Notes under the pieces: model-generated
What the model was told of the DNA's origin: nothing
Database searches by the model: none
Seen by the model: the letters and a program-made list of their open reading frames with translations, nothing else
Part shown: piece by piece, positions 6,103-37,702 of the stretch
Layout: each line of letters starts with the position of its first letter
How positions within the stretch are numbered: the stretch's first letter is position 1
DNA from: Duganella zoogloeoides
Lineage (GTDB): Bacteria; Pseudomonadota; Gammaproteobacteria; Burkholderiales; Burkholderiaceae_D
Length of the DNA: 64,000 nt
Direction of reading: 5' to 3'
Assembly (NCBI RefSeq): GCF_034479515.1
Contig: NZ_CP140152.1
Span: forward strand, 992,001-1,056,000
Translations under genes and position numbers: made by a program

Positions 6103-6948
6103 TTAAGCGCGCTCGGCGGCTTCGACGGTATTCATCAACAACATCGTAATCGTCATCGGGCCCACGCCGCCCGGCACCGGGGTAATGTGGGACGCCACTT
6201 CCTTGACGCCTGCAAAATCCACATCACCGCACAGCTTGCCTTCGTCGTTGCGGTTCATGCCCACGTCGATCACGATGGCGCCCGGCTTGACCATGTCGGC
6301 GGTCAGCACGTTGCGGCGGCCCACGGCGGCCACTACCACGTCGGCCTGGCGCGTAAAGACGCCGAGGTCCGGGGTGCCACTGTGGCAGATGGTGACGGTG
6401 GCGTTGGCTTGCAAGAGCAGCAGGCCCATCGGTTTGCCGACGGTATTGCTGCGGCCGATGACCACGGCGTGCTTGCCCTTCAGATCGACGCCGGTGCTTT
6501 CAATCAGCTTCATGCAGCCGTACGGCGTGCACGGGCGGAAGCCTTCCAGGCCCGTCATCAGTTCGCCGGCGCTCAGTACCGAGTAGCCATCGACGTCCTT
6601 GGTGGTGGAGATCGCTTCGATCACCTTGTGCGGATTGATATGCTTGGGCAGCGGCATTTGCACCAGGATGCCGTGGATTTTCGGATCGGCGTTCAGCGCT
6701 GCGATACGTTCAAGCAGGGCAGCTTCGGACAGGTCGGCCGGGTATTGTTCCTTGAGCGAATAGAAACCGGCATCCTCGCAACCCTTGACCTTGTTGCGTA
6801 CATACACGTGGCTGGCGGGATCGTCGCCGACCAGGATCACGGCCAGGCCGGGTTGTTTGCCTTTGGCGGTGAGCACGGCAGCACGTGCAGCAATTTCAGC
6901 ACGCAGTTTTTGGGAGAGGGCGATTCCGTCGATCAGTTGAGCAGACAT
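6103..6948 (-). CDS. folD: Bifunctional methylenetetrahydrofolate dehydrogenase / methenyltetrahydrofolate cyclohydrolase
   Basis: Interconverts 5,10-methylene-, methenyl- and 10-formyl-tetrahydrofolate with NADP in one-carbon metabolism. Its 281 residues are full length. Seen are [14 protein letters not shown] with the catalytic lysine, the dinucleotide segment [19 protein letters not shown], and the C-terminal [15 protein letters not shown]. It is the first gene of the minus-strand cluster and diverges from aceE. The start has no strong Shine-Dalgarno. Confidence 0.97.
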
Positions 6949-32305: not shown

Positions 32306-33721
32306 TAATGCCGTTAAGTTAAGGATCTAGGCTGACCCGAGTTAGTTGTTGTAAACATGCGCGAAGGCTGTTAACCTTCGCGCCATGCTGTCCGACGCTC
32401 TCCCTTTGACCACATGCGACTTGCCAACTCCGGACTGGGGCCGGCTAGGTGAGCAATTGCCCGTCGAATGGATCTTGGGAGCATTAAATCACACCGGCAA
32501 GGCAAGTATTCGGCAGCGGCGTCTGCCGGCGGAACAGGTAGTCTGGTTGGTCATCGCGCTAGCGATCTACCGACATCGCTCAGTGCGACAAGTGTTGGGT
32601 GAATTGGAACTCGCGCTGCCGGATCTGAAGGACACGTGCGTGACCGATAGCGCTGTAACGCAAGCACGTCAGCGGCTGGGCGAAGAACCGTTGGCGTGGC
32701 TATTTTCAACGTCCGCGCGCCATTGGCAAGTGCAAGATGCCCATCGCTCGGACTTCCACGGCCTCCAGCTTCTTGCTATGGATGGGACGACCCTGAAATT
32801 AGCCGATAGCGCGGAAAACCGGGCGCATTTCGATTCACCACACTTCGCCAACGGCGCTTTGGCCAGTTATCCCCATGCCCGCATGGTGACCCTGGCTGCG
32901 TTGCGCACGCAATTGGTTTTGGCCGCTGATTTTGGTCCCTATAGCAAGGGGGAGATGAGTTTTGCCTTACCGCTGCTCGACGCTATCGCCGACCATTCGC
33001 TGACGGTCTTCGATAAAGGCTTTCTAGCCGCCGAGCTGCTCCATAAACTGCGCACCCAAGGCCAGCAGCGGCATTTCCTGGTGCCGGCCAAGGCCAACAC
33101 ACGGTGGCATCTCGTGAGCGGCGACAGTGACGATGGCATCGTCGAAATGCGCGTTTCCCCACAAGTACGCAAGCGCGACCCCGCCATGCCCGAACAATGG
33201 CAAGCGCGTGCCATTGCAACGAAAGATGCGAAGGGCAACCGGTGCTATTTGCTGACCTCCCTGACGGATCGTCGACGCTTCCCTGCGAAAACCGTCCGTG
33301 ACTGTTATAGCGAACGCTGGCAGATCGAAACGAGTTACCGCGAAATCAAGCAAACCATGATGGGGATGGCCCTGTGCCTGCGCAGCCAAAGTGTCGCAGC
33401 CATCAGGCAGGAAATCTGGGGCATTCTTATTGCCTACAACCTCGTGCGGTTAGAAATGGCGCGCACGGCAGAGCAGGCAAAATGCGCCCCCAATGACGTC
33501 AGCTTTATCTTCGCCCTCGGGATATTTCAGCTCGAGATGTTGCATGCAGCCTCCGAGCGGGCCTTGGGCAACCTACCAGGAACGATCAAACGGATGCGCG
33601 AGAGGATGATCCTCGAACTGAATGTCTATCGACCCGACCGGAAATTCGATCGGGTCACTAAAGCAAAACCGCAACGCTATCCTGAACGCAGGCTCAGGAA
33701 AACCTTAACTTAACGGCAATA
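32306..33721 (+). mobile_element. Complete IS4-family insertion sequence, 1416 bp
   Basis: Terminal inverted repeats of 19 bp with one mismatch (core TGCCGTTAAGTTAAGG at 32309-32324 and 33703-33718) enclose one intact transposase gene. An 11-bp direct repeat flanks it. It sits in the left arm of a ~29-bp inverted repeat whose intact right part is at 33722-33799, so the insertion is later than the palindrome. Base composition is less GC-rich than the neighbours. Confidence 0.93.
32385..33713 (+). CDS. IS4-family DDE transposase
   Basis: 442 residues, apparently intact. DDE elements: LLAMDGTTLKL (first Asp), TVFDKGFLAAELL (second Asp) and the IS4 signature Y-x2-R-x3-E-x6-K in YSERWQIETSYREIK. 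The N-terminal domain (VEWILGALNHTG, RRLPAEQVVWLVIALAIYRH) is typical of this group. The gene ends 8 nt from the right end of the element. Confidence 0.95.
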   Translation: MLSDALPLTTCDLPTPDWGRLGEQLPVEWILGALNHTGKASIRQRRLPAEQVVWLVIALAIYRHRSVRQVLGELELALPDLKDTCVTDSAVTQARQRLGEEPLAWLFSTSARHWQVQDAHRSDFHGLQLLAMDGTTLKLADSAENRAHFDSPHFANGALASYPHARMVTLAALRTQLVLAADFGPYSKGEMSFALPLLDAIADHSLTVFDKGFLAAELLHKLRTQGQQRHFLVPAKANTRWHLVSGDSDDGIVEMRVSPQVRKRDPAMPEQWQARAIATKDAKGNRCYLLTSLTDRRRFPAKTVRDCYSERWQIETSYREIKQTMMGMALCLRSQSVAAIRQEIWGILIAYNLVRLEMARTAEQAKCAPNDVSFIFALGIFQLEMLHAASERALGNLPGTIKRMRERMILELNVYRPDRKFDRVTKAKPQRYPERRLRKTLT

Positions 33722-36815: not shown

Positions 36816-37538
36816 TCAGCCCTGCCACAGAAAGCTGTCGAGATCGACCGCAACGTCCGATGGTACACCTTCGGACGCCAGCTTGCTCGCCTGCTGCGGC
36901 AGCGCCGCCAGCAACTGTCCGCGCCCGTTGACGATGCGGTGCAGCGGCAACCCTGCGTCCAGGTGGCGTTTGATGTAGCCGGGCAGGGCGCGTATAAAAC
37001 TGTCATCGACGCCCATGGCCATGGTGATATCGCGGTAGCGCACCACGCGCCCGCGTGGCACGGTGGCGACAAAGTTGCAGAATTTTTGCTGCACCGAGTC
37101 CGGCAGCGGCGCATAGCGCCCCGGGACGAGGGTGACCGTATCCCCGGTGCGCAGCGTGCCGCCATGGGCCACCACGCCGAGGATGCCGCGCCGCTCCACC
37201 ACGGCCGCCAGGTTACCTACCAGCGGCGCGATGCGCTGGCACGGTTCGCAGTACATGGTGAGGCGGATTTCAGCATCGCCAATGACGATGGCGCTGCCGG
37301 GGCGGAAGTCTGCGGGCGCGGCGCCCGTGATCACCAGGTTTTCGTACAGCGCGCCCGGCGCCACCGCCAGCGCGTCGAGTTGCGCCGCCAGCGTGACCAG
37401 CACCTGGCGCGGGCTCAGTTTGTGGGCGTGGATGTCGCCGGCGATGCCCACGCCTGTGGTCAGCGTGATGGCGCTTTGCTCCACGACCGGCTGGTGGCGT
37501 GCGGGCTTGAGGAACAGGTGGGCGATGGTGATCGGCAT
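36816..37538 (-). CDS. MOSC domain fused to an alkyltransferase-like (ATL/MGMT) domain
   Basis: 240 residues in two domains. Residues 1-140 are a MOSC domain (TTGVGIAGDIHAHKLSPRQVL; Cys97 and Cys100 in MYCEPCQRI, the conserved cysteine region of YiiM-like molybdenum-cofactor proteins). Residues ~148-240 match the DNA-binding domain of O6-alkylguanine methyltransferases: VPRGRVVRYRDITMAMG, LPLHRIVNGRGQL, KLASEGV, VDLDSFLW. The active-site PCHRV is PLHRI, so the acceptor Cys is Leu199, as in ATL proteins (which bind but do not repair). Both parents are linked to modified nucleobases, so a joint role is plausible but unproven. The start ATG 37538 lacks a strong Shine-Dalgarno. Confidence 0.82.
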   Translation of the reverse strand: MPITIAHLFLKPARHQPVVEQSAITLTTGVGIAGDIHAHKLSPRQVLVTLAAQLDALAVAPGALYENLVITGAAPADFRPGSAIVIGDAEIRLTMYCEPCQRIAPLVGNLAAVVERRGILGVVAHGGTLRTGDTVTLVPGRYAPLPDSVQQKFCNFVATVPRGRVVRYRDITMAMGVDDSFIRALPGYIKRHLDAGLPLHRIVNGRGQLLAALPQQASKLASEGVPSDVAVDLDSFLWQG

Positions 37539-37556: not shown

Positions 37557-37591
37557 CAAAAAAAGGTTACGCGCATGAAGCGGGTAACCTT
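37557..37591 (-). terminator. Terminator of tRNA-Lys
   Basis: An 8-bp stem (37563-37570 with 37584-37591) followed on the minus strand by a run of T residues. It begins 36 nt past the tRNA 3' end. Confidence 0.85.
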
Positions 37592-37626: not shown

Positions 37627-37702
37627 TGGTAGGCCGTGCGGGATTCGAACCTGCGACCAACGGATTAAAAGTCCGCTGCTCTACCAGCTGAGCTAACGAC
37701 CC
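37627..37702 (-). tRNA. tRNA-Lys (anticodon UUU)
   Basis: 76 nt with encoded CCA. Acceptor stem GGGTCGT/ACGGCCT, D-loop AGCTCAGCTGGTAGAG, anticodon loop CTTTTAA, T-loop GGTTCGAATCC. All four arms fold. It is a single tRNA with its own promoter and terminator. Confidence 0.98.

Follow-up and report, generated by a model that had tools for sequence, protein, structure and literature searches.

A 240-residue protein of Duganella zoogloeoides was found to join an N-terminal MOSC domain to a C-terminal DNA-binding domain of the alkyltransferase-like (ATL) or MGMT type. As a DNA-lesion module and a MOSC reductase occur here in one chain, reduction of N-hydroxylated bases at DNA is suggested, and we tentatively favour, as a possibility that stays short of probable, a MOSC molybdoenzyme that an ATL-type base-flipping domain would bring to DNA to reduce N-hydroxylated bases. 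The window (the whole stretch of 64,000 nucleotides that was analysed) comes from a host genome consisting of a single contig of 6.32 Mb, and the following features concern the fusion.

36816..37538, minus strand: MOSC-ATL fusion gene, 240 aa, ATG start, TGA stop
37119..37538, minus strand: MOSC domain, residues 1-140 (PF03473 match at residues 44-136)
37239..37250, minus strand: CEPC motif, residues 97-100; the Cys100 column is shared by every MOSC sequence compared
36819..37100, minus strand: ATL/MGMT-type DNA-binding domain, residues 147-240 (PF01035 match at residues 149-224)
37035..37037, minus strand: Tyr168, aligned with Atl1 Tyr25; Tyr in 124 of the 136 clade-A proteins listed
36990..36992, minus strand: Arg183, aligned with Atl1 Arg39 (arginine finger)
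36936..36947, minus strand: PLHR motif, residues 198-201; Leu199 is at the position of the AGT Cys and of the Trp of most ATLs
37627..37702, minus strand: tRNA-Lys(TTT), directly upstream of the fusion gene (context only)

An alternative longer form of the gene, beginning at an in-frame TTG at 37559, is present in the list of open reading frames. In a Pfam scan, the window protein matched MOSC (PF03473) with 36.7 bits against a cut-off of 22.7 bits (E 4.7e-9) and DNA_binding_1 (PF01035) with an E of 2.1e-7, also above the curated cut-off. No third Pfam family was found up to E 1, nor was a fused electron-donor domain at the same threshold. The 240-residue MOSC and ATL/MGMT-type layout, which the earlier note had read from the letters alone, is thus real, and the domain search that the note had proposed gave a match above the cut-off for each half. 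The AlphaFold model, likewise proposed there, is a confident two-domain structure (pLDDT 95.3, pTM 0.89) in which the MOSC fold is present and the C-terminal half resembles Atl1, the structural matches being YuaD/mARC1 and S. pombe Atl1. A chance domain match was ruled out by the Pfam scores, the structural matches and the detection of MOSC in relatives. A sequencing frameshift or assembly artefact joining two genes was also rejected because full-length homologues occur in many genomes, at least 136 proteins sharing the layout, and because both halves are under purifying selection.

A search of 5.8 billion proteins returned 156 matches. PF01035 is among the precomputed domains of all of the best 120 of these 156 and PF03473 is absent from part of the precomputed labels of the same relatives; with a limit of E <= 0.01, our own Pfam scan detected MOSC in 89 of the 92 relatives scanned. 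Clade A comprises 136 proteins, the window protein included, among the matches listed (120 of 156 and 120 of 708), and alignment A3 holds 80 of them together with 12 loci. Cys97, Glu98, Cys100, Arg183, His200 and Arg201 are invariant in all 136 clade-A proteins listed, so that the cysteine pair pointed out earlier within CEPC is both present and kept throughout. Pro198 is found in 134 and the C-terminal Trp (Trp238) in 135 of the 136 listed, and Tyr168 is replaced in 12. Position 199 is occupied by Leu (97), Val (24), Met, Ser, Phe or Arg (3 each), Thr (2) and Cys (1). Since this position varies while neighbouring residues stay fixed, the acceptor position has been released and its surroundings conserved, and the replacement of the alkyl-acceptor Cys by Leu199, as claimed from the window protein's PLHR, is borne out. 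The single Cys belongs to P0128, the only one of the 136 listed clade-A proteins with a Cys at the acceptor position. The dN/dS values of seven distinct pairs range from 0.18 to 0.48 in both halves, by which both are judged to be under purifying selection. The Cys100 column is invariant in 15 of 15 sequences, stand-alone MOSC proteins included. The CxxC pattern is not special to the fusion, as ordinary small MOSC proteins and the YcbX-like protein of the host genome also carry it.

Among solved structures, the C-terminal half is closest to Atl1 (3gva, E 1.1e-10) and the V. parahaemolyticus ATL (2kif, E 1.9e-8), with Ada (1sfe, E 2.6e-6) and the other AGTs ranking behind them. Its profile aligns as far as the C-terminal Trp in both 3gva and 2kif, an ATL-type extension beyond the AGT domain. 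We conclude that the C-terminal domain is derived from an ATL and probably still contacts DNA. The window protein has a PF01035 domain without the acceptor Cys (absent in 135 of the 136 clade-A proteins listed) and an HTH with the arginine finger and the tyrosine; Atl1 Tyr25, the counterpart of Tyr168, is taken by us to be the base-flipping tyrosine. The acceptor Cys in PCHR that marks AGTs (MGMT, Ogt and Ada) is replaced by PLHR in the window protein, and the Trp at the Cys position of ATLs is found in none of the 136 clade-A proteins listed. ATLs have no extra N-terminal domain; as MOSC stands in front here, the C-terminal half was classed as an ATL-derived domain and the whole protein was not classed as an ATL.

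The stand-alone comparison set consisted of 20 stretches of the same order, namely 19 short ATL-like ORFs and the Ada-like ORF of the host genome, the stand-alone ATLs and MOSC proteins compared being a non-random set drawn from matches to the fusion profile A2. PW[HWQFY]R occurs in all 19 short ATL-like ORFs, and in 18 of them (not in L062) the next loop, which typically reads SPRGLDG, contains an Arg; in Atl1, Arg69 presumably contacts the lesion. The fusion reads PLHRIVNGRGQLLAALPQQ, without the Trp and with a shorter loop that lacks the Arg of the stand-alone ATLs. As both the pocket Trp and the Arg-bearing loop of the compared ATLs are missing, O6-alkylguanine may no longer be the target of the fusion. 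Compared with S. pombe Atl1 (3gx4, 3gva) and the V. parahaemolyticus ATL (2kif), the fusion differs by the MOSC domain in front, by a mostly aliphatic residue for the Trp in PxHR and by this shorter loop without the Arg. In the available part of one source, a Trp at the Cys position is described as usual for ATLs, although not strictly defining, and the Tyr and the Arg finger as base-flipping features of AGTs and ATLs alike (PMC10779285). The archaeal ATL-EndoV and AGT-EndoV fusions treated in the same source likewise place an alkyltransferase-type recognition domain and a second activity in one chain, but their partner is an endonuclease whereas here it is a molybdoenzyme-type domain found in other taxa (PMC10779285).

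The N-terminal half falls in the MOSC superfamily by its PF03473 match above the cut-off and its single universally conserved Cys (Cys100). The C-terminal 3-alpha domain of YiiM (PF03475) is absent from the Pfam matches of the window protein up to E 1 and was not found in genome G000 at E <= 0.001. No MOSC_N, which precedes MOSC in YcbX and mARC, was found among the two Pfam families up to E 1, and the MOSC domain lies near the N-terminus. In contrast to YuaD, YiiM, YcbX and mARC, the fusion thus carries no 3-alpha, MOSC_N, ferredoxin or flavin domain (Pfam up to E 1) and has an ATL domain instead. Besides the fusion, the host genome encodes a single MOSC protein, which looks YcbX-like by eye, and has two further open frames with PF01035, of 392 codons (Ada-like by eye) and 197 codons. 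MOSC was reportedly first predicted as a sulfur carrier by Anantharaman and Aravind in 2002. According to the available text of a more recent source, every MOSC protein studied in vitro shows N-reductive activity, Mo is probably bound via the universal Cys, and N-reduction may have no relation to the biological function of these proteins (PMC10637980). YcbX and YiiM reduce HAP, a major product of peroxyl-radical exposure of DNA and nucleobases, to adenine, and the physiological substrate of the two enzymes is called an open question (PMC3831636, available part). MOSC-MoaB and MOSC-XdhC are also rare MOSC fusions, described in the available text as not studied experimentally (PMC10637980); their partners point to Moco biosynthesis whereas the partner in MOSC-ATL points to DNA.

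A second group of relatives, clade B, was obtained in a search with 625 matches, the best 120 of which are listed, the named ones belonging mostly to Massilia and kin. Cys97, Cys100, Tyr168, Arg183, Pro186 and Trp238 are kept in all 120 proteins among the matches listed, and PxHR is missing from all 120. Clade B keeps MOSC and the first HTH helices, and PF01035 falls below its cut-off of 27 bits in the two clade-B proteins scanned (P0138, 20.2 bits; P0181, 26.0 bits). The model of P0138 matches that of the window protein in confidence, with a pLDDT of 94.5 and a pTM of 0.89. No ATL structure is among the best 50 structural matches listed for the clade-B model, an absence which is no evidence of a different fold. 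The MOSC tree, which was built quickly and has modest support, places clade B together with two cyanobacterial-type proteins in which PxHR is retained (support 91), by which a secondary loss of PxHR would be the simpler reading. The fusions separate from the sampled stand-alone sequences in both domain trees (MOSC support 92; ATL support 100, the latter tree being without clade B), which is compatible with a single fusion event; L094, which repeats L085, was left out of the tree. Over 29 proteins, the identities in one half track those in the other (Mantel r 0.88, with none of 2000 permutations as high), the correlation within clade A being weak (0.44). In one clade-B copy (L015) the C-terminus does not follow the family sequence, as though read in another frame, and this copy was left out of A2, A3 and A6.

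The named genome loci with the fusion belong mostly to Duganella or Massilia. Among 195 genomes of the same family, nine carry the fusion at >=50% identity, 13 have a relative of 32-39% identity that extends to about residue 190 (clade B, with 11 loci read and those of G126 and G139 left out) and 21 gave further weak matches, mostly to the MOSC part. In the same order, 123 of the 300 genomes searched gave a match. It extends over the two domains in five of them, namely in the own genome, in G079, G056 and G018 (all clade B) and in the clade-B-like G205 of another family. The other matches listed for the order cover one domain or little more, and only the own genome and G018 pass E 1e-20 among 398 genomes of the same phylum. 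A tblastn search of 72,556 plasmid records gave nine matches, all cyanobacterial (four Nostoc, two Trichormus and one each of Aulosira, Calothrix and Gloeothece), with 37-41% identity over >=92% of the query. Their copies are annotated as 'MGMT family protein' in four RefSeq records and as 'hypothetical protein' in three GenBank records. A Sericytochromatia MAG also carries the fusion, and in its phylum, which we take to be Cyanobacteriota, nine matches pass E 1e-15 among 386 genomes including that MAG; eight are full-length and the ninth is MOSC only. The 13 cyanobacterial-type proteins aligned (Aulosira, H2, and Trichormus 0441, H3, were left out of the set and Calothrix, L089, out of alignment A5) all keep both Cys, Arg183, Pro198, His200 and Arg201; at position 199 they have Ile, Val, Leu or Ser, three have Thr in place of Tyr168, and seven retain Trp238 while six have lost it. 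Since the two domains are paired in soil bacteria and again on plasmids of cyanobacteria, they represent a real protein family, which might mend or detoxify damaged bases at DNA. The layout and the loss of the acceptor Cys given in the earlier note are confirmed, its interpretation is supported in part, and the family is wider than it had implied.

Some single copies deserve a remark. The annotated CDS of the Calothrix NIES-22 plasmid copy (L089, 5986-6558) stops at 6558 and the protein match extends to 6747; either an interruption of this copy or a truncated annotation may explain the difference. A phage origin was rejected: in tblastn of the window protein against phages, only a MOSC-MoaB/MogA-like protein was matched, and the sole relative in two IMG/VR scans is one divergent protein. 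The former is an apparent MOSC-MoaB/MogA fusion of another family in 'Bacteriophage sp.' MT837344.1 (L103, 5001-5858; second domain named by eye). The latter, on viral contig IMGVR_UViG_3300020045_007949 (L093, 4857-5462), is a 201-aa divergent MOSC protein with CEPC that scores 18.0 bits, below the cut-off, and has an HTH-like segment with the clade-B SYCRSIP motif after the MOSC stretch; it gave no match against the phages by tblastn.

No neighbour of the fusion gene is constant across the family, and the neighbours differ between sub-groups and plasmid loci, on which ground an operon partner was rejected. In the window, a hairpin recognised by eye is followed by a T-run, and the gene starts 19 bases past this run; the hairpin is absent from the list of the consensus scan. 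A T2SSE ATPase gene lies upstream beyond tRNA-Lys, and a family-3 solute-binding protein and an S9 peptidase are encoded downstream. A 442-aa transposase-like ORF, named by look, lies about 3.1 kb away (32385-33713, plus strand), and an apparent translated tRNA 3' end was seen by eye ahead of the gene in two close relatives (L002, L003). A short-chain dehydrogenase (SDR) gene adjoins the fusion in six Duganella loci (L025-L028, L032 and L034; e.g., 6735-7478 in L025) and in the Sericytochromatia MAG (L036, 5068-5895), tail to tail in L025 and divergent in L036, and another lies about 0.5 kb away in Calothrix L089. This is the nearest to a recurrent neighbour, and it could reflect chance or a redox partner. 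On the Gloeothece plasmid Cy782202 (L084, 4769-6753), parA-parB lie 50 bases upstream of the fusion gene and share its orientation, and type I-MYXAN CRISPR genes occur a few kb beyond it. No Moco gene was found among the neighbours, which covered nine ORFs of three loci (Pfam) and the annotated stretches of seven plasmid loci. The Moco synthesis gene moaA is present in 23 of 23 proteobacterial carriers and in six of six non-carriers; being found in 29 of 29 genomes whether they carry the fusion or not, it is uninformative on Moco dependence. PF03475 occurs in six of 37 genomes (1/23 proteobacterial carriers, 1/6 non-carriers and 4/8 carriers of the cyanobacterial sample), a distribution uninformative on a replacement of YiiM by the fusion, which was set aside.

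Regarding the Moco loading, DNA binding, substrate and reaction of the fusion, we infer that the C-terminal domain would bind DNA via its HTH, that the arginine finger, usually with Tyr168, would expose a modified base, and that the N-terminal MOSC domain, holding Moco through Cys100, would reduce 6-hydroxylaminopurine or N4-hydroxycytosine in or beside DNA. This DNA-directed reduction is favoured by the layout, in which both domains are complete and confidently modelled together, by C97/C100, R183, H200 and R201 being fixed in all 136 listed while position 199 has lost its acceptor Cys and drifts, by purifying selection, the separation in the trees and the shared divergence of the halves, by moaA in 23 of 23 proteobacterial carriers, and by the literature on MOSC N-reduction and HAP. 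Against it count the non-discriminating moaA, the lack of an electron-donor domain and of a constant neighbour, the variable Tyr168 and Trp238, the weak correlation within clade A and an N-reduction possibly apart from MOSC biological function (PMC10637980, available part); the strongest fact against it is clade B, which is without the pocket hairpin. The same clade, with MOSC, the first HTH helices, R183 and P186 retained and PxHR in none of the 120 listed, would suit an ATL domain that acts off DNA as a structural lid or dimer module of a small-molecule MOSC reductase in place of the YiiM 3-alpha domain. YiiM likewise has a small helical domain C-terminal to MOSC (PMC10637980, available part), its alignments stop at residue 170 inside the HTH of the clade-B model and at 145-151 in the clade-A model (range ends only), and Trp238 is lost in six of 13 cyanobacterial-type proteins. 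We nevertheless consider a lid rather unlikely for the family, since a mere lid would have no need of the conserved P198, H200, R201 (all in 13 of 13 cyanobacterial-type proteins; 134, 136 and 136 of the 136 clade-A proteins listed) and C-terminal Trp (135 of 136), although the ATL remnant of clade B may, by analogy, be a lid like the YiiM 3-alpha domain.

An ATL-type repair sensor would agree with the closeness of the C-terminal half to Atl1 (3gva) and 2kif ahead of AGTs, with the known ATL-EndoV and AGT-EndoV fusions (PMC10779285, available part) and with two DNA-glycosylase genes within about 6 kb of the fusion on one Nostoc plasmid; it is unlikely, as the pocket Trp and Arg-bearing loop of stand-alone ATLs are missing and all 136 proteins listed keep the MOSC cysteines, beyond the need of a structural cap. 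Clade B, as MOSC plus a short HTH region, could also be read as a Moco- or redox-responsive transcription regulator in which MOSC senses the cofactor and the HTH binds an operator, but the fixed Arg finger is a base-flipping feature and no Moco genes are among the neighbours (nine ORFs of three loci; seven annotated plasmid loci), making this very unlikely. A sulfur transfer via the CEPC pair to DNA or RNA bases, in line with the early sulfur-carrier prediction reportedly made by Anantharaman and Aravind, is extremely improbable given that the CxxC is not peculiar to the fusion and that MOSC proteins studied in vitro perform N-reduction (PMC10637980, available part). DNA-directed reduction could extend, which we consider quite unlikely, to a new direct-reversal repair, where the ATL domain flips N6-hydroxyadenine or N4-hydroxycytosine and the MOSC Moco centre reduces it to the normal base without excision; a path from the flipped base to Moco would then be cleared in clade A by the missing Trp and Arg loop, and in clade B by the absence of the entire PxHR hairpin.

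The view that no enzyme of such a layout had been described agrees with the literature searched, in which no description or assay of a MOSC-ATL fusion was found and no paper joining a MOSC domain with alkyltransferase-like or methylguanine; subscription journals and preprints lie outside this coverage, and an earlier mention is possible. A survey of molybdoprotein fusions gives none with an alkyltransferase domain in its available part, its table of new fusions covering DMSOR, SO and XO rather than MOSC (PMC6147048). AGT-EndoV/ATL-EndoV and MOSC-MoaB/XdhC fusions are already known (PMC10779285, PMC10637980; available parts), and the MOSC-ATL fusion is neither a new fold nor a new class.

The natural substrates of MOSC molybdoenzymes, human mARC included, are described as unsettled in the available parts of two sources (PMC3831636, PMC10637980). 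A fusion to a domain that recognises DNA lesions, conserved across proteobacteria and cyanobacteria, points physically to DNA as the substrate or the place of action, and one small protein makes this question testable, with cultured carriers such as Trichormus variabilis ATCC 29413 and several Duganella making the tests practical. If no base is reduced, the ATL domain would still have been reshaped for a new role, with its acceptor released and its hairpin missing in one clade; if bases are reduced in DNA, this would be reductive direct reversal by a molybdoenzyme.
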